Assembly: GCA_001970855.1 (NCBI GenBank)
Contig: LSSN01000081.1
Span: 1-64,000 of the forward strand
Source of the DNA: Smittium culicis
Lineage: Eukaryota > Kickxellomycota > Harpellomycetes > Harpellales > Legeriomycetaceae
Length of the DNA: 64,000 nucleotides
Direction: 5' to 3'
In this document: in pieces, positions 12,411 to 57,780 of the stretch
Layout: the number at the start of each line of letters is the position of its first letter
Numbering within the stretch: the stretch's first letter is position 1
Translations under genes and position numbers: made by a program
Notes under the pieces: generated by a model
Database searches by the model: none
The model's input: only the letters and a program-made list of their open reading frames with translations
What the model was told of the DNA's origin: nothing

Positions 12411-13601
12411 ATGATTGTTGGAGCACTCGCTATCTTTACTTTCGCATCTGCATCTTTCGCAGCAAACCCTCATCTTGTCTCATTCGGTGACAGCTTCTCC
12501 GATATCGGTAACGTAGGAACCGAAGGTCAAGATATTGCTTATTGGAATGACCGCCACTCAAACGGTCCACTTTGGAATGAGTACCTCGCATTCAATAACA
12601 AATACACCTTGGTTGACTTTGCCAACGCCGGTTCTACGGTAAATAACACTCTTGTTAACAGTTTCTCAAAATCTAACATCAAATTGCCAAGCTTGTCAGA
12701 TCAAATCGACAACTACGTCAAATTGTTTGGCTCAAACCTAACTCGCCATGATGTCAAAAAGGATATTGCTGCCATCACTGTTGGCTCAAACGATTTCAGC
12801 TATGCCATGAAAGAAATGGATAAATCAGCTTTCAAATCCGTTTGGTACAGCAGCGCACTCGTTGATTCAATAGTCTCTAACATTGAAAAATTGATCAACT
12901 TTGGTTTTAAAAAAGTCATACTTTTCAACATTCCAGATTTGAAGAACGTTCCAGGAATCTCTGTCCAGGCCGGAAACTTCACTAGCGGTCTCGATCTATT
13001 CGTTACCCTAACTAACTTGAAGATTGAACAATCAGTTAAAGCTATCAACGACAAAAACATTAAAAACTTTGACTGGGTTAGAGTTGTCAATTACTATGAC
13101 GTTCTAAACGTTATGGCTAACCAAAAGGACCCAAAACGTAACTTTGGTATTATTAACTTCAACCTCCCATGTAACCAAGTTCTCTCCGAAAACAAGCTAT
13201 CTAAATGCACTAACCCAAACCAATACTTCTTCTTTGACTCAACCCACCCAACAACTAAAGTCCACGCTTTGATTGGTGCATACGCTTCAGAGCTTATCAG
13301 TAACTCAAAGTTCGCAGTTACATTCAACTCCCTCTTTGATATCTACAACAACTACAAAATCTTTGAAATAACCGACTCCGTAAACCCACTATTTATCGCA
13401 AATTCTACCACAACCGGTAACTTGACCATCGATGAATTCACAGTAGCACAAGTTATTTCAAACAAAACTCAGATCATCAACGAAAAGCGCGGTAAGAGAT
13501 TCAACAACAGCGCTTCGTCTAAAAACAAATCATTCTTCACCGCCTCATCTCTAATGGGAGCTTCAGTTATGGCAGCTGTTGCTTTCGCCACTTTACTTTA
13601 A
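12411..13601 (+). CDS. Secreted GDSL/SGNH-family esterase-lipase-like protein with hydrophobic C-terminus
   Basis: Single exon, 396 residues. A 17-residue signal peptide ends at SFA. The GDSL block is FGDSFSD, with the predicted nucleophile Ser28. Further family blocks are NAGST, the oxyanion-type GSNDF, and DSTHP with catalytic Asp276 and His279. The family hydrolyses ester bonds of lipids or polysaccharide acyl groups; the substrate here is unknown. Several N-glycosylation sequons occur (NNT, NLT, NFT, NST, NKT). The end is Ser/Asn-rich (NNSASSKNKS) followed by a hydrophobic tail, VMAAVAFATLL, which fits a GPI-anchor signal and hence a cell-surface location. Codon choice is much richer in C and G at third positions than in the neighbouring genes, suggesting high expression or acquisition from elsewhere. 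It converges on the MADS-box gene. Confidence 0.88.
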   Translation: MIVGALAIFTFASASFAANPHLVSFGDSFSDIGNVGTEGQDIAYWNDRHSNGPLWNEYLAFNNKYTLVDFANAGSTVNNTLVNSFSKSNIKLPSLSDQIDNYVKLFGSNLTRHDVKKDIAAITVGSNDFSYAMKEMDKSAFKSVWYSSALVDSIVSNIEKLINFGFKKVILFNIPDLKNVPGISVQAGNFTSGLDLFVTLTNLKIEQSVKAINDKNIKNFDWVRVVNYYDVLNVMANQKDPKRNFGIINFNLPCNQVLSENKLSKCTNPNQYFFFDSTHPTTKVHALIGAYASELISNSKFAVTFNSLFDIYNNYKIFEITDSVNPLFIANSTTTGNLTIDEFTVAQVISNKTQIINEKRGKRFNNSASSKNKSFFTASSLMGASVMAAVAFATLL

Positions 13602-14420: not shown

Positions 14421-16961
14421 TTAATTTTTTCTGTAATTTTGTATTGGAGGAGAGTTTCCAGATTTTGAAGGCCAAATAAAGGACTGTTTTGAAGAAGGAT
14501 CTTCTAATATTGGGGTTGCGAAACTTATTGAAGGAGGAATATCGCCTTGGTCGTAAAAATCAGTGTAAAAATTCCCAGGGGATGGTAATCCTTGAGCAAA
14601 TTCGATAATTGCTGCAGTATCTGGACCGGGCTCAGAAATATTGAGGTTCGTTTCAGCTACCAAAGATTGTACATTTTTATTCTTTGGTTGATTTTTTGAT
14701 GATTTATCGGTTGAAGATTTTATCAGTAATCTCTCAAGAATAATATTTTTTTCTTTTGATCTTGAATTTGGCAGCATTTGCATTGAACCTTGGTCGCCGA
14801 CATGAAGTTTAAAATCTCTAGGCCCCTGCGATAATTTATCAAACTCATTTGTGTTGCTGTTTTTATCAAAACTCGATGAATTATTTTTTATTGATTGTTT
14901 TCTACTATCATTTTGTTTGTTTTCTGTAACTGAATTGCTTCCTATTAAGGAATTAGAGTGGACAGCAGAAGCTGGTTCAGAAGTTTTTGACTTGTTTAAG
15001 TCATTACTTTGGTTTTGTAGGCGGTTCAAATTATTGTTATATTGGTTAATTTCATCTTGTGTAAAATTAGAATTTTCCTTTTTTTCCAGAGGTACTTTGC
15101 TTCCATCTTCAGATATCGAATATAAAATTTTGAGAATATCTAAATATGCACTTGGGGACTTGCTATTATCTTTTTCATCAGGATTATTTCCTTCAGCATT
15201 ATTTTGGGTATTACTATTAACATTTATATTACTATTATTCATCGCACTATTTTGAACAGATGGGTGGTTTCTGGCCAATGATACCATCGAGTCGCGCGTA
15301 TTTCTATGTGCTTCCCTACCATCTTTAATGCTCTCTCTTTTTTTACTACTATTATCGTGTTGGTATTCATCACTTTCATAATCTGAACATGAATCTGGAT
15401 AGCCGTCTTTGTCATCTGCACCAGCTTTTTTAGAGAAATGATCTCTATCGCTTTGTTTTCGTTTTTTAGCAGATGAGTTGTAGCCATCTTCTTTTCCATA
15501 GTTAGTTAAAGTTGTAGGATCTGTATCTATATCATATATACTTCCTATACTTCCTCTGTTAGTTCTAGAGATATTATTGCTATCGTTAAAATCGGATTCC
15601 ATTTGGTTATAGTCTGAAACTTGGGTGCTAGTACTTTTTTTACGAGACATTTTAGTGTTATATTTATTGTAAGTTCGCCTTTTTTGTATAGTTGATGGTT
15701 TGTTTGCTTTGAAGCTAAATGAGGGTCTTGTACGGGATTGGCTAAAGGAATTTCTAGGATACTTATATGAATATCTGCTAGCTTCAGACAAATGTCCTGA
15801 ATAAAACCCTGGGCTATCTAACCTACTTCTAAAATCAATGTCTACTGAACTTGTTGGTAAGTATTCTTGGTATCGGCCTTGAAAATGGGTATTTTGTTGA
15901 AATTGACTATAAAACGGCGATTGTTGATCAGAAAGCACAGGGTTACCGTAAGCATCATGGATTTTTGGAAAAGAAGCGCTTGCGTGGCTATAATTATTTT
16001 CGCTGCCTAAAGATAGTCTAGACCCTTTGAAGCTGTTAGCGGAATTTTTTTGATGATATTGATTTTCATATAAACGATTAACAGAATAATCATTTTTTTC
16101 AGAGTTCAATTCAAAATTTTGTTGGTAATTGCTAGAATTTAGAAAATCTTTTCTATCTTCTATTAGACTACCTTGAATTTTATCGGGATAATAACCATCT
16201 TGCTTCAGTAAGGAATCTTCTATTTCGTTAATAATGGATAATGGATAGCGATCTTGGGTAGAGTTTAACTGGAAATTTCCGTTATTACCCCTTATTTCAC
16301 TTGGGTTGCTATAATTGTTATGAGTAGGATATGCTTGATTTAAATTAGACAAGTTATTTTGCATAATATTTTCAGAGTTGCTAATCATGGATTGGAATGA
16401 AGCTTGATGTCCAGAATTAACAGCAGTAGCATTTGTATCATTGCTAAATTCACGCTGCTGAATAGGAGTAAAATCGAGAGATGATGGTCTCAGTTTAGTT
16501 TGCCTCTTTGTAGAAACATCGTTAATTTCTGAGTCGTCTAGAATATTATTATTATTAATGTTTGAAGTAAAAAATTCGGAAATTGAGTTGTCAGAGATTT
16601 CGCTTTTTGCTATTCTTTTTGGAACCGAAGGAGCCAAAAGTTTTTTGGTTATTTTAGCGCTTGTTGGAGTAGATTTTTGAGTGGGTACACTATCGAGGAA
16701 CAAAGTATTACAGTCATCATTTGTATAACTCTCATGTGGCTCTCCATAGTCGGTGTATCTTAATAGAGTTGAGTTCATATCGTTGCTTGCATATTGAACA
16801 AGCTTCCCTTGCGAGCTAAATATTATTAGAGCTATCTCACATTCACACAGCGTACTTAGTTCATAAGCCTTTTTCATTAAGCCAGATTTTCGCTTTATGA
16901 AGGTGACTTGTTTGTTTCTCTCATCTGAAATTGCAACGATCTTGATTTTTTTTCTGCCCAT
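14421..16961 (-). CDS. MADS-box transcription factor, MEF2/Rlm1 type
   Basis: Intronless, 846 residues. It starts [20 protein letters not shown] and contains [17 protein letters not shown] and [10 protein letters not shown], a complete MADS domain (1 to about 60). This is followed by a MEF2-like extension with [19 protein letters not shown] and TNDD (about 61-83). The motifs place it in the type II (MEF2/Rlm1/Smp1) group, not the SRF/Mcm1 group. Such factors bind A/T-rich CTA(A/T)4TAG sites in the nucleus, and in yeasts they act below the cell-wall-integrity MAP kinase; that role here is inferred. The remainder is long, low-complexity, Asn/Ser/Gln-rich and apparently disordered, with basic patches (SAKKRKQSD) that could be nuclear localisation signals. 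The ATG is fixed by the invariant MGRKKI start. Confidence 0.93.
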
Positions 16962-43332: not shown

Positions 43333-45686
43333 ATGAGCAATCAAGTAAACTTCTCAACTCACTCTAGCCAGATACATTCAGCGCATGAAAGAATTCTTGC
43401 TGCTGATCCCGAAATATCCTGGGCTGTTTTTGGCTTTGACAAAGGATCAAACGATTTGAAAGTAGATGCAACAGGTTCTGAAGGTTTAGAAGAATTGGTT
43501 GAAGAGTTTGACTCAGGAAAAGTACAGTATGCATTTTATAGATTCTCAGACCCAAAAACTAAGCTAAATAAATTTGTTTTCTTCTCCTGGTGTGGTTCTG
43601 GAGTTCCAGTATTTAAAAAGGGGCTTCTTGGCTCCCAGATTGGCGATGTACAGAATGTTTTGAAGGTAATAGAACTAATCTGATTTTATTAGCAAAACAA
43701 TTAGACAAAACAGCATTAGTAAATTTAAATCTAACATTGACACTATTTATTTAGGGCTATCATGTATCTATAAATGCTCGTTCAGATGACGATATTTTAC
43801 CAGAGTCAATAATGGAAAAAATTGAAGAAAGCTCTGGTTCTAGATATGATAATCAATACTCAAAGAAAATTGTAAAAATTTTTTATCCATACCGTTCTTT
43901 ATCCTATTGATGCTTAATTTATAATATTTCATATCTATAGATTTCTCCAAAGCCTCTGATGTCTACTAGTAACATTCCTCCTCAACCAAAAATTGCTACT
44001 AAACCTACAGGGTATTCTAACAAATACTCATCCCCCAAAAATATTCCTTCAAAGCCTAATTTAGACTCATATTCAAGCAGGAGTTATAATTTCCCAGCTA
44101 GAAAAACTTTATCTCCCGATCTTACCACGCCCAAAATAACAGATTCTTCGATTAGCAATATTCCACGGGAAAAAAAATCTGAACCCACTCAAGCATCATT
44201 AGGTACAAAGCCTCTCTTTACCAATGCTAAACCTGTATCATCAATCTTTGGACCTAAAAAATTTTCCAGTCAAAATTTTTCTAGCTCAAGTAATACTTCA
44301 AAGCCCATTCAGTCTGCCAAAATCAATTCCAATAGTAATTTATATGGAAATAGCAATTCTCCATCAAATTACAATCCTTCCACTGGTGCTAATAGAATTT
44401 CTACTGCATCAGAAAAGCACAGATTGAATGCTACTGACACTGTAGTAGCATCCAATTTGTCACAAGCTGATCAAACTAAAAGTGAGCTGGAAATGCTAAG
44501 AAATAAAAATTTAAATAATAGAAAGCCGTCCAATAGCGGTACTAGCTTTAATTATCAAAATAGGGAACCTAATGCCATTAATCCTATTCCAAGCGATATT
44601 GATAAACTAAGCAAGGATTTAACTAAGTCTACTACGATCACAAACCAAAGAAAATATAGTTTATCTTCACCATTTAATCAAAGTGTGAACAATGATAATT
44701 CATCTAAAACCACATATCACTCCAAATCTCAATCTGTGGAGTATAATAATAGTCAACTAAACAAAAATGTTGAAACTAAGATCATTTCTTCTAAGCAGGC
44801 AGTAGTTATGTACACTTACCAAGCTGAAGAGTCTAATGAAATGGATCTTTACGAAGGTGAAATTATCACAGATATCGAAGTAATCGATGATGGTTGGTGG
44901 TCTGGAAAGAGCTTAAATAGTGACCGCTCTGGATTATTCCCCGCCAACTTTGTTGAATTTATTGAGACTGACAATGTTGGTTCGGTATCTTCTGACCCCA
45001 GTGGAGTACCAACAAGTCACGATATTTTACAAGAGCAATCCCAATCATCCCCCAAGTCAGCCCAGCCTAATTCCTCTTTGTCCTCACCACCACCACCTCC
45101 CCCCCCTCCTGCTCCTCAGCTCAATACATTTTCCCCACCACTACCTCCCCCTCCTGCTCCTGCTCCTGCTCCTCAGCTCAATACATTTTCCCCACCACCA
45201 CCCCCTCCTGCCCCTCAGCTCAATACATTTTCTCCACCCCTACCACCACTACCTCCAAAAACCACCAGCCTTCATGAAACTGCCTATGGCAATAACATTG
45301 ACAGTTCCGTCCATGATCTACCACCTGCTTTACCCTCTAGAAGAGTCGCTGAAATTCCTTCTGTTTCTGACGAAAGCGAGGCACCTCCTCCACTACCTAG
45401 AAGACAAGATAACGATGGCAATCATGTTAACTCTAATTTTTCAAATGTAAACTCTTCGAATACAAACTCTGCTATTCATCAAGATACTGTGGACGATTTC
45501 TCTACTTCTTATAAAGCCGTTGCTTTATATGACTACTCTGCTTTAGAAGATGGTGAATTATCATTTGATGAAGGTGAATTGATTACAAATGTTGATTTTC
45601 CTTCTGATGAATGGTGGCAGGGATTTAATAGCAAGGGTCAATTTGGACTGTTCCCTGCAAATTATGTTGAGCTTTCGAAAAACTAA
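43333..45686 (+). CDS. Abp1/drebrin-like actin-binding protein with ADF-H and two SH3 domains, three exons
   Basis: Proposed exons: 43333-43665, 43755-43871 and 43941-45686, GT-AG introns of 89 and 69 nt, 731 residues. Residues 1 to about 135 form an ADF-homology domain ([42 protein letters not shown]) that binds F-actin. A long Ser/Asn/Pro-rich linker follows. SH3 domain 1 (about 436-491) has YTYQAEE, DDGWWSG and [12 protein letters not shown] polyproline region then holds three [10 protein letters not shown] units, and SH3 domain 2 (about 674-731) has [24 protein letters not shown] and LFPANYVEL. The family couples cortical actin patches to endocytosis and Arp2/3. Budding-yeast Abp1 has one SH3; two, as here, occur in other fungi. 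No acidic Arp2/3-binding motif is obvious. Confidence 0.92.
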
Positions 45687-50050: not shown

Positions 50051-52057
50051 ATGAAATACGTTTACACTTCATCGCTTTTAGCGATGATAAGCTTTTCTAA
50101 GGTCACTCATGGAAGTTATTTTGGACAAAATGGACAGTACAAGTTACAAGGAAATGATGGGCAAGTCTACTATGACAATAACCATAATGGCCTATACTAT
50201 AATGATAATGAGCCTTACGACGAAGCAATTCCAGAGATTTATCAAAACAAAGTTCCGGCTGTTCAACCAATCTCACCGCCAACACCTGCTAATGTAGCAT
50301 TTCCACAACAAATTATAGCTGCCCAACAAGTACAGGTCCCAGAAATGGTTGCCAAACAAGCACCTATTCCTGCTATGGTATCCCAGCAGACACCAGAGCT
50401 AGTACAAGCTCCAGCTCCGGTATCTGGGGCAAGATCGATAGTTTCTCAAGTAAGAAATGGTCAGTTTTCAGTCGAGAGTAAAAAAGAACGCTCTAGAATA
50501 AAGAAAATGATAAAGAGAGATAAAATCCAAAGGATGGTTAGAAAACTCTTTAAAGCAGATAGAAAGGCAGTCAACATTGCTAGAACCATAAATTCAGTGA
50601 AGTCGACTAACCCAGAATTGGCATCAAAATTATCACTAACACTAGATAAAATCAAAGCTAGAATCCAAAGATTGACAGATAAGCTTAAATCTAAAGTCGA
50701 TCCGATTAGATTTGATGTAATATCAACTAGTATAAAAATCAATGACCCAAAAACTGACCTTACAGCTAAGCCTACTGATTACAAAAAGCTTACTGAAGAA
50801 CAAAAGGTTAAAAAGATGACACGAAAAGTGCTTAGAGCCGACTTTAAAGCAGTTAACTTGGCCCGTGCTATTAACGCTCTAAAGGACAAGAATCCTAAAT
50901 TGGCCGAGAAATTGTCTGCAAAACTCGAAAGAACTAAATCGAGGATTTCAAAAATCTTAGATAAAATTAAAACCAAGGTTGATGCTGCCAATTTCCAAAA
51001 GATCTCGGAAAAAGTCAAGATAAATGATCCAAAGACAGACCTTACAACTAAACCATTGACTCTTAAGCAAGTTAAGAATCATATCATAGCTAAAAAAATA
51101 CAACGTAAAATTAGGATTAGAGATAGAAAATCTGTCAATCTTGCTCGCGCCCTTAATGCTGCTAAGGGCAAAAACCCAAAGCTTGCTCGAATTCTCAAGA
51201 AAAAGCTTGACAGAAACATTAGAAAACTTAGAAATTCATTGAATAGGTTAAAGAAAAGAGTTAGCGCAGATAAGTTGGACAAAGTTATCTCTAAAGTTAG
51301 AATTCTCAGTCCTAGTGTTGATCTTAAGGCAGCACCAAATCCACGAAGGAAACTAACAAAAGACGAGAAAGTTGCTAGGCTTACTAGACGCACATTAAAG
51401 AGTGCAAGAATGGCCCGTAGATTGAATCGTAAGCTTAAAGCTGCGCTGAAATCTGGTAACAGGCGCCATGCACTAAAACTTTCAAAGATAATAAGAAAAG
51501 CCTCTATAAATAGATCGAGAGCGCTAAATAAACTATCTAGACTCGTAGAATCTGATGCTGTTAAAGCTATAGCAATAAGGACCCACTTTAAAGTTCCAAA
51601 AGTGGCAAGATTAACTAAAAGAAAAAGTATTTACCAGAATAAACATCAAATACCCAAGAATACTGAGAATAAGAATATATTCAATCCAATAAGACAAAAT
51701 GTTAAACCAAAATATAGAGATGGAAGGTTTAAAGTACGCAGAGGCAGAAAATACAAAGGAAGAGAGTCCAGAAAACTCAAGCTTCTCAGAAAACTACGAA
51801 AACTTAGCGGAAGACCGATAAGAATTCGCAAAGCATCTAATCGCAGACTTAGATATCTCATCCGTAAATTCAAGAAATGTGCTAGAAGATGCTGCGATAA
51901 ATGTGTTGGTAATTGCTTGAGTAAATCAATTAATCTTATTAAATCCCATACTGCAGAAGGTGAAAGTTACAAGTACAACTCTGGTAGACGCGGAATGTTA
52001 AAGCTAAAAATTGACTTGAAAGCTAATAACAAAAAAAATGTTAAAGCAGCTATGTAG
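50051..52057 (+). CDS. Secreted, highly basic protein with 94-residue tandem repeats; function unknown
   Basis: Single exon, 668 residues; no family recognised. A signal peptide (MKYVYTSSLLAMISFSKVTHG) precedes a Tyr/Asn/Gly-rich stretch and a Pro/Gln/Val/Ala-rich segment to about 130. From 157 to about 530 come four repeats starting at 157, 251, 345 and 439, an exact 94-residue period. Each begins (D/Q/E)K(I/V)..(M/L)(V/T)RK and contains KAVNLAR.(I/L)N..K.KNPKLA..L, a basic helix, then KI.DPKTDL. The fourth repeat is the most diverged. The C-terminus is almost pure Arg/Lys with a six-Cys cluster (KKCARRCCDKCVGNCLSK, near 612-630). The net charge is extremely positive, which for a secreted protein suggests binding to acidic polymers such as wall or host polysaccharide, mucilage or nucleic acid; that is inference. 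Dibasic sites are too frequent to predict processing. Confidence 0.85.
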   Translation: MKYVYTSSLLAMISFSKVTHGSYFGQNGQYKLQGNDGQVYYDNNHNGLYYNDNEPYDEAIPEIYQNKVPAVQPISPPTPANVAFPQQIIAAQQVQVPEMVAKQAPIPAMVSQQTPELVQAPAPVSGARSIVSQVRNGQFSVESKKERSRIKKMIKRDKIQRMVRKLFKADRKAVNIARTINSVKSTNPELASKLSLTLDKIKARIQRLTDKLKSKVDPIRFDVISTSIKINDPKTDLTAKPTDYKKLTEEQKVKKMTRKVLRADFKAVNLARAINALKDKNPKLAEKLSAKLERTKSRISKILDKIKTKVDAANFQKISEKVKINDPKTDLTTKPLTLKQVKNHIIAKKIQRKIRIRDRKSVNLARALNAAKGKNPKLARILKKKLDRNIRKLRNSLNRLKKRVSADKLDKVISKVRILSPSVDLKAAPNPRRKLTKDEKVARLTRRTLKSARMARRLNRKLKAALKSGNRRHALKLSKIIRKASINRSRALNKLSRLVESDAVKAIAIRTHFKVPKVARLTKRKSIYQNKHQIPKNTENKNIFNPIRQNVKPKYRDGRFKVRRGRKYKGRESRKLKLLRKLRKLSGRPIRIRKASNRRLRYLIRKFKKCARRCCDKCVGNCLSKSINLIKSHTAEGESYKYNSGRRGMLKLKIDLKANNKKNVKAAM

Positions 52058-55674: not shown

Positions 55675-57780
55675 TTGCTCAAAAAAAACACTCTGACAGT
55701 TATGACTTACAATATACGAGGCATAAAGAGTGTAAAAGAGGAACTTGAGCACTATCTGAATTTTTCACAGTCGGATAGTGCTAAGCCCGATATCCTGGCA
55801 CTTCAGGAAACATTTTTAACGAAAAAAACTTACCGCTGCCGCATACCAGGATACACATGTATAGAGGCGAAAGCCGATCACGCCAAAGGTGGCACCGGTC
55901 TACTGCTGGTAGTAAAAAATAATATTGGACTAGAAATTAGCGAATTTAAAGCAGCGTCAACTTGGCTACCTGGGATAGACTCTGGGCGCGCCAAAAATGG
56001 GGATGAATTTACGCTCTTGGTCACAAATGTGCACTTCCCAAGCGCTGGAATTCGCAAAAAGCGAGCGATTTCCGAACTTTTGGACCACTTAAAAAATGTA
56101 ATAAAAAATTCAACAAACATATACTGCTGGGGGACTACACTATGGACACCATCGAATCAAAAAAAGTTTGAACTGAAGCTTGGAACTAGGTTTCAACATA
56201 AAAAAGTGACCAACTCGATTGGATAGAGGTACAATAAGAACATCGTGAGTCGCATGATCGACCACATATACTATGCTGGGCTATACAGCCGGCCAAACTG
56301 GTGCACAGAAAACCGCTATTTGCACCTCTCTGAACACATTCTGATCACAGCACAGTGAATATTGGACGCTCTCGAGGTACAAGCAAAAAAAAATCAAAGA
56401 TTGACTCGAAAATAAAAATATTTGCTGAGAATAATTTTGTCAGCCGTAACCGATTTACAGTGCTAGCTGAAGCAGAAATGGGCAAAAATGAGCTTTGCGC
56501 AAATCTAATTGACACCTTTTGGCATCAATCTCCTCGTCTCGATTTGCTGGATGCATCTGGAGAAACCATAAAAACTGTGCCTATAAAAATCACCCTCAAA
56601 AAAAATAAAAAAACGACGAAAAAAATTTCAAAAATTAACAAAGAATAATTGACCAATCAGCGAATGCATCAAAGCAAAATCGAGTGCAGATCAATCAATT
56701 TGGGCCGATGAAAAAGCATAGCATGCAAAATGGCTATAAAAATCGCCTATCAGATTCTGAACAACGACTCAAAGTCCTAACGACGGTTCATCAAATCATA
56801 AAATGGGAAATCTCTCCGAAGATCGCAATGGCCCGGTGTACGATAAAAATAAAAAATTAATCATTATAAAACAATATAAAATAAAAATCTGAGCATATAA
56901 TTTGAGAACTGGCCAAAGAGAATAATGTGAATAGCCGATCCGCTGATAAGTGGGAAAATCTTATCGCTATCAGTTGTAACTAATACCCAGAGTGTAATAA
57001 TTAAATTAAATGAACTGATAAAACTCAGGAATATGTAGATACACCTAACAAAAAAGATTAGAGAGCTGATGGATTTCTATCTAGGTTATGGAAACTAGAC
57101 ATGGTTGAGCCAACACCCACATCATCACCAGCAAAATTAATTTATAAAATCATCAATACTATATATGACACTTGGATTATAACCCAGCGCCTAGAAACTT
57201 CAGTATCGGTATGATTGCCTAAAAAATGTGCCCTGAAAGACCTCTACAACTAAATTAGGGATATCATTGATCCCAACACTGGCGAAGCTGGTGGTCAAAA
57301 TTGTGACCACAAAACTCAGCAAAATCGATGCGAAATACAGTATATTGGTGAAAGAGCAATCAGGATTTCGAAGTTTCGAAGAGTGTGCGGGCCAAGCGAC
57401 CACTCTATATGAAATAGTCCGCAGACGGAAAATTCAGAACAAGGAAACATGGTTATGCTATATCGACTATATCAAGGCCTACGACCGGGTCCCCCACATG
57501 GCCCTACTGCATAAACTGCGATCAGTGGGCATTGAGGGAAATCCCATCAATATGATCAAGAGCATTTATGATGCGCCTAAAATCGAAGTTAGAGTTGGAA
57601 ATAAAGTTTTCAGACATACAGAATTTCTCTGTGAAGCCCGGAAAGGGTTCTCAGCCTCGCCTATACTCTTCGATTTCTACATCATCGATATATTCAAGGG
57701 TGTAAGATATATACGGTCACTTGGAAATATCTCATGCAATCCGGGGAAAATTTTACCTCCAATATGACCCTTCATGACCA
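55675..57780 (+). pseudogene. LINE ORF2, endonuclease plus reverse transcriptase, disrupted
   Basis: The endonuclease (55675 to about 56345) shows TYNIRGI, LQETFL and GGTGLLLV. The GD(Y/F)N-equivalent segment is frameshifted near 56130. The final motif reads LSEHILITAQ where the copy at 1-875 has LSDHMPIAAQ, so a catalytic Asp is replaced by Glu. The reverse transcriptase (57267-57767) shows EQSGFRSFEECAGQ, CYIDYIKAYDRVPH and an altered GFSASPILF motif (normally G.RQG..LSP-like). No (F/Y)xDD box was found downstream, so the active site appears lost. Several frame breaks occur between 56220 and 57266. Confidence 0.85.

Follow-up and report, generated by a model that had tools for sequence, protein, structure and literature searches.

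What kind of protein carries an extreme positive charge together with an internal period of 94 residues, and does it act inside or outside the fungal cell? The question is raised by an open reading frame in the window, i.e., the whole stretch of 64,000 nucleotides of Smittium culicis DNA that was analyzed (assembly GCA_001970855.1, contig LSSN01000081.1, positions 1 to 64,000, forward strand). The frame runs from ATG to TAG without an internal stop, and its product contains 107 Lys, 68 Arg, 29 Asp and 19 Glu, Lys and Arg together accounting for 26% of the residues. The extreme overall charge claimed by the initial annotation was confirmed by the computed net value of +127. We favor, with a probability of roughly one half, the explanation that this protein is a secreted, disulfide-linkable polycationic scaffold of the outer matrix of the fungus, binding polyanions. 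It is composed of the following parts:

50051..52057, + strand: whole open reading frame, 668 residues, stop included; intact reading frame with a full-length relative, P0002
50051..50113, + strand: signal-peptide-like start, residues 1-21, cleavage site assumed; by pattern and by conservation in six of six members
50114..50248, + strand: acidic Tyr/Asn-rich stretch, residues 22-66, net charge -6; by composition
50249..50473, + strand: Pro/Gln/Ala-rich spacer, residues 67-141; by composition
50519..50800, + strand: A repeat 1, residues 157-250; by offset identity and profile, with a three-helix model
50801..51082, + strand: A repeat 2, residues 251-344; by offset identity and profile, with a three-helix model
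51083..51364, + strand: A repeat 3, residues 345-438; by offset identity and profile, with an array model
51365..51598, + strand: B repeat (repeat 4 of the initial annotation), residues 439-516; clade with seven other B repeats, profile match to A, three helices in the array model
51599..51850, + strand: basic tail, residues 517-600 (start at 516 or 517), net charge about +30; by composition
51851..51955, + strand: Cys cluster, residues 601-635, with C610, C614, C618 and C622 at steps of four; spacing kept in four of four C-termini
51956..52054, + strand: conserved C-terminal end with LKLKIDLK; by conservation

The Pro/Gln-rich spacer and the Arg/Lys-rich tail with a compact Cys cluster, both named initially, were thus present (residues 67-141, 517-600 and 601-635).

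The 94-residue period stood out clearly from the controls. Self-identity at this offset over residues 157-540 was 34%, against a shuffle mean of 9.3% (standard deviation 1.6, maximum 15.5%; 5000 shuffles). The next-best offsets within the range of 20-199 were 188 (twice 94) with 24% and 174 with 17.6%, the best offset of this range reaching at most 17.4% in 1000 shuffles. For repeats 1-3 alone the identity at offset 94 increased to 45%, against at most 16.5% in 1000 shuffles. The same period was found in two further S. culicis proteins, P0002 and P0003, and the A-to-A spacing was exactly 94 in all eight neighboring pairs (two each in the window protein, P0002, P0003 and the paralogue L007), with the 14 A repeats of the family aligning without any inner gap. 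The fourth repeat of the window protein had a gapless identity of just 9-15% with repeats 1-3 and in the repeat tree it joined seven further terminal repeats as type B, on a branch separated from the 14 A rows with a support of 100/100. Compared by hhalign, the A and B profiles scored 37.3 (probability 91) across 70 columns containing a single gap (a one-residue shift), against at most 18.0 for 100 column-shuffled B profiles, the evidence being somewhat weaker than these figures because both profiles contain close relatives. The window array consists of three type A repeats and one related type B repeat; of the four repeats at exactly 94 residues proposed initially (at 157, 251, 345 and 439), the period and the uniformity of the first three were upheld, while the fourth belongs to a separate related type.

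Structure prediction of a single A repeat, which had been suggested as a check, produced three helices with a mean AlphaFold confidence (predicted local distance difference test score, pLDDT) of 90, and the array model also placed three helices in the B repeat. Searches with the A repeat and the array by Foldseek against the PDB and viral models, and by VIA-align, returned only generic helical bundles, which is no proof of a new fold.

The gene is not alone in its genome. A search of 56.3 Mb in 2529 contigs, in which the window gene lies on contig C73 and all member counts are lower bounds, revealed at least four family genes, i.e., the window gene and three paralogues: on C2136 (1123 residues, three A and four B repeats), on C2163 (487 residues, one A and one B) and on C2209 (at least 335 residues up to the contig edge, one A and one B). 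The paralogue tails contain short Arg/Cys or Arg/Ser repeats (L008:3689-5149, the end of L009 and the tail of L007); residues 333-410 of L008 lack Lys altogether but include 46 Arg and 14 Cys, and the C2209 sequence stops within tail repeats of this type. The N-terminal piece alone, searched against the same genome, yielded two weak matches within the family and revealed no additional gene of it, and words shared between the 400 upstream bases of the four genes were within the Markov controls. Weak matches on contigs C858, C2204 and C614 were discarded: L021 and L032 appear to show unrelated low-complexity or Pro/Ala likeness.

Both named relatives belong to S. culicis, a fungus of the Harpellales living in the guts of insect larvae, which agrees with the gut-dwelling host surmised in the initial annotation: P0002 (AYI69_g22, hypothetical protein, 670 residues) is 81% identical to the window protein over the full length, and P0003 (AYI69_g6610, partial, 394 residues) is 35% identical over 64% of the query. 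The source name of P0002 is "C2H2-type domain-containing protein," but its Pfam scan shows no C2H2 domain. All four window repeats pair in the tree with their P0002 counterparts, indicating that the present repeat order predates that split, and A1 and A3 of P0003 pair with those of paralogue L007. Three protein searches found no relatives beyond Smittium; two of them scored the best 7993 word-sharing candidates and the third missed the true relative P0003, so that these searches were shallow and absence from other Harpellales cannot be claimed. To judge from the sequences compared, the family appears so far in Smittium alone. Its paralogues and homologues exclude the lack of homologues that had been named as grounds for dismissing it. 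The guanine plus cytosine content of the window is 21-35% in 4-kb steps, and about 29% is reported for two S. culicis assemblies (PMC5954228).

The initial proposal that the repeats have diverged under selection while keeping their length agreed both with the eight A spacings at 94 and with the codon patterns. Pairwise agreement among repeats 1-3 of the window protein is 52-76% at codon positions 1 and 2 and 23-34% at position 3; the A repeats of L007 differ by nonsynonymous distances (dN) of 0.25-0.32 against synonymous distances (dS) of 1.3-1.9, the latter near saturation. Better conservation of positions 1 and 2 and dN below dS show purifying selection on the repeat. Repeats B3 and B4 of L007 are recent copies (dN 0.034, dS 0.044) whose ten changes tell little, with no clear constraint visible.

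Such a family might nevertheless work inside the cell, binding nucleic acids, ribosomes or chromatin, with an N-terminus that is merely signal-like. We consider this improbable: neither Pfam, NCBIfam and PDB-sequence searches nor the profile searches indicated any known intracellular family, so that the intracellular homology named initially as a possible refutation did not appear. The Pfam scan of the window protein gave Baculo_PEP_C (PF04513) with 21.2 bits (E 3.1e-4), where the curated cut-off is 38 bits, along with five other, weaker families. The PF04513 match recurs, with E values no higher than 10 (best 0.0055), in seven of eight A repeats, but the baculovirus polyhedron envelope protein C-terminus was rejected on its bit score, and the similarity was attributed to charged helices resembling each other by chance. 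The BAG domain (PF02179) had no significant match, with four BAG1 matches at E 0.011-0.48 from profile A2 only; none of the 30 matches with A-repeat profile A7 supported BAG homology, and the Pfam BAG model picks other genes in the genome. The NCBIfam scan gave nothing up to E 0.1, and the PDB sequence search no convincing match. The view that the protein fits no named family was sustained by these scans, no Foldseek match was convincing, and no publication naming such a protein turned up in a literature search that had most subscription journals outside its coverage. We regard the family as genuine and conserved, with a function that has not been described, an artefact being unlikely.

Entry into the secretory pathway is suggested by the N-terminal pattern and its conservation: the start MKxVYTS and uncharged residues 3-16 are present in all six members, and the hydropathy analysis showed no membrane-like stretch of 19 residues. 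A signal-like start followed by repeats would also suit a precursor from which the Golgi protease Kex2 would release basic peptides, as in the Kex2-processed repeat proteins (KEPs). The genome contains a kexin-like protease gene with a P domain (L034:1-2373; P domain 99.4 bits), and RR motifs are frequent. The Kex2 sites between KEP repeats are described as KR or RR, less often KK (PMC6339444). Of the KEP hallmarks, the window protein has the internal repeats but not the KEX2 sites between repeats, and the signal peptide is putative, its pattern being signal-like in six of six members: KR or RR occurred in none of the eight A-to-A linkers and KK in two, so that nothing marks the A array there for Kex2 cutting. 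In the linker between A3 and B, the window protein carries RR and P0002 carries KR. KR was rarer than RK in the four own-genome proteins (16 vs 62), although eight other proteins from this genome (17 vs 26) provide a weak contrast (Fisher p 0.03); the scarcity of KR fails as a proof of intact secretion, because RR is abundant and this control contrast is weak. The fold model, moreover, would make each repeat one unit. Considering the linkers together with the RR motifs, the A array likely stays whole, while the tail may be cut, and a peptide precursor seems very unlikely.

For the chain that would remain after the assumed cleavage, the calculated charge was +125 at pH 7, +56 at pH 10.5 and about -4 at pH 12; larval guts are alkaline. 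The Cys residues of the window protein lie at 610, 614, 615, 618 and 622, and the ladder of four Cys at steps of four is kept in all four available C-termini of the family. In the proposed scaffold, the acidic Tyr-rich stretch together with the Pro spacer would serve as a flexible, oppositely charged arm. The A and B repeats would line up as Lys-rich modules of three helices each, as modeled, and the basic tail with its Cys ladder might provide disulfide links between chains. The array might then hold polyanions, such as anionic polysaccharides of the wall, the mucilage or the host gut lining, acting as wall scaffold or holdfast glue. Part of the same evidence suits a secreted cationic antimicrobial or host-acting protein, whose repeats or Arg/Cys tail would harm gut bacteria or bind host surfaces: the extreme positive charge, the amphipathic-looking helices of the model and the Arg/Cys-rich paralogue tails. 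The exact repeat length, the long spacer and the Cys ladder speak instead for a structural part, and Pfam and NCBIfam gave no antimicrobial family match, which leaves this option with a small probability.

The matrix scaffold draws on the signal-like start, the high charge up to pH 10.5, the locked length of the A repeats, selection, the helical model, the stepped Cys and the linkers without Kex2 sites, as well as on the holdfasts of Harpellales, which are described as secreted and mucilaginous (PMC7270078). Several points weigh against it. The initially proposed signal peptide holds as a conserved pattern, but its hydrophobicity is modest (best 10-residue hydropathy 1.5-2.2); RR motifs, at which Kex2 can also cut, are plentiful outside the linkers (123 over the four own-genome proteins), so that the tail may be cut; and we know of no other holdfast protein for comparison. 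That the scaffold serves the holdfast rather than the wall in general is a guess, and a doubtful one. Also unlikely is a new class of underwater glue or matrix protein, in which a chain combining the acidic Tyr-rich arm, the Lys-rich modules in 94-residue register and the basic Cys-ladder tail would condense with itself or with host polyanions in the larval gut and then be locked by disulfides; if true, no molecular component of a Smittium holdfast would have been identified before it. A protein stored in the trichospore and released at spore extrusion, e.g., as spore coat or appendage instead of holdfast or wall, would be served by the anatomy and recalls papers on Smittium spore extrusion and holdfast formation, represented here by their titles only; we give it little chance. 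If the family is extracellular as favored, it would offer a first molecular handle on matrix or holdfast building by obligate gut fungi, and an undescribed length-locked helical repeat would join the secreted polycations, with relevance to wet adhesion.

A second candidate matrix protein was noticed in the same genome: L032:1132-2019 and L033:1129-2016, on two contigs, encode near-identical secreted-type proteins of 295 residues, in which a basic part rich in Tyr and Arg and a Pro/Ala spacer are combined with a chitin-binding domain at the C-terminus (CBM_19 in a scan of L032 alone, 20.9 bits with a cut-off of 20.1). Downstream of the window gene lie pieces of a non-long-terminal-repeat (non-LTR) retrotransposon (55675-56226 and 57267-57767), with Exo_endo_phos just below and RVT_1 above the cut-off; an open reading frame downstream of the L007 gene (L007:7643-9001) resembles the first one of that element and has no Pfam match. 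Elsewhere the window encodes a GDSL-like lipase/acylhydrolase with a signal-like start (12411-13601, + strand), a MADS-box (SRF-type) transcription factor whose long tail is rich in Asn and Ser (14421-16961, - strand) and a proline-rich protein containing two SH3 domains (43959-45686, + strand).

Three known systems resemble parts of this architecture as described. The diatom silaffin precursor Sil1p has a signal peptide, an acidic N-terminal part and then strongly basic repeats (PMC4557024), but these are short, cleaved at RXL-type sites and heavily modified. In diatom pleuralins, a Pro-rich N-terminal domain precedes several PSCD repeats, each about 90 residues long, and the end is variable (PMC4557024), the repeats being rich in Pro, Ser, Cys and Asp in contrast to the Lys-rich helices modeled here. 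The microsporidian polar tube protein PTP2 is secreted, Lys-rich and basic with conserved Cys, but its N-terminus is described as rich in Ser and Gly and its conserved Cys number 8 in A. algerae, with no 94-residue repeat mentioned in the available part of that description (PMC10229552).
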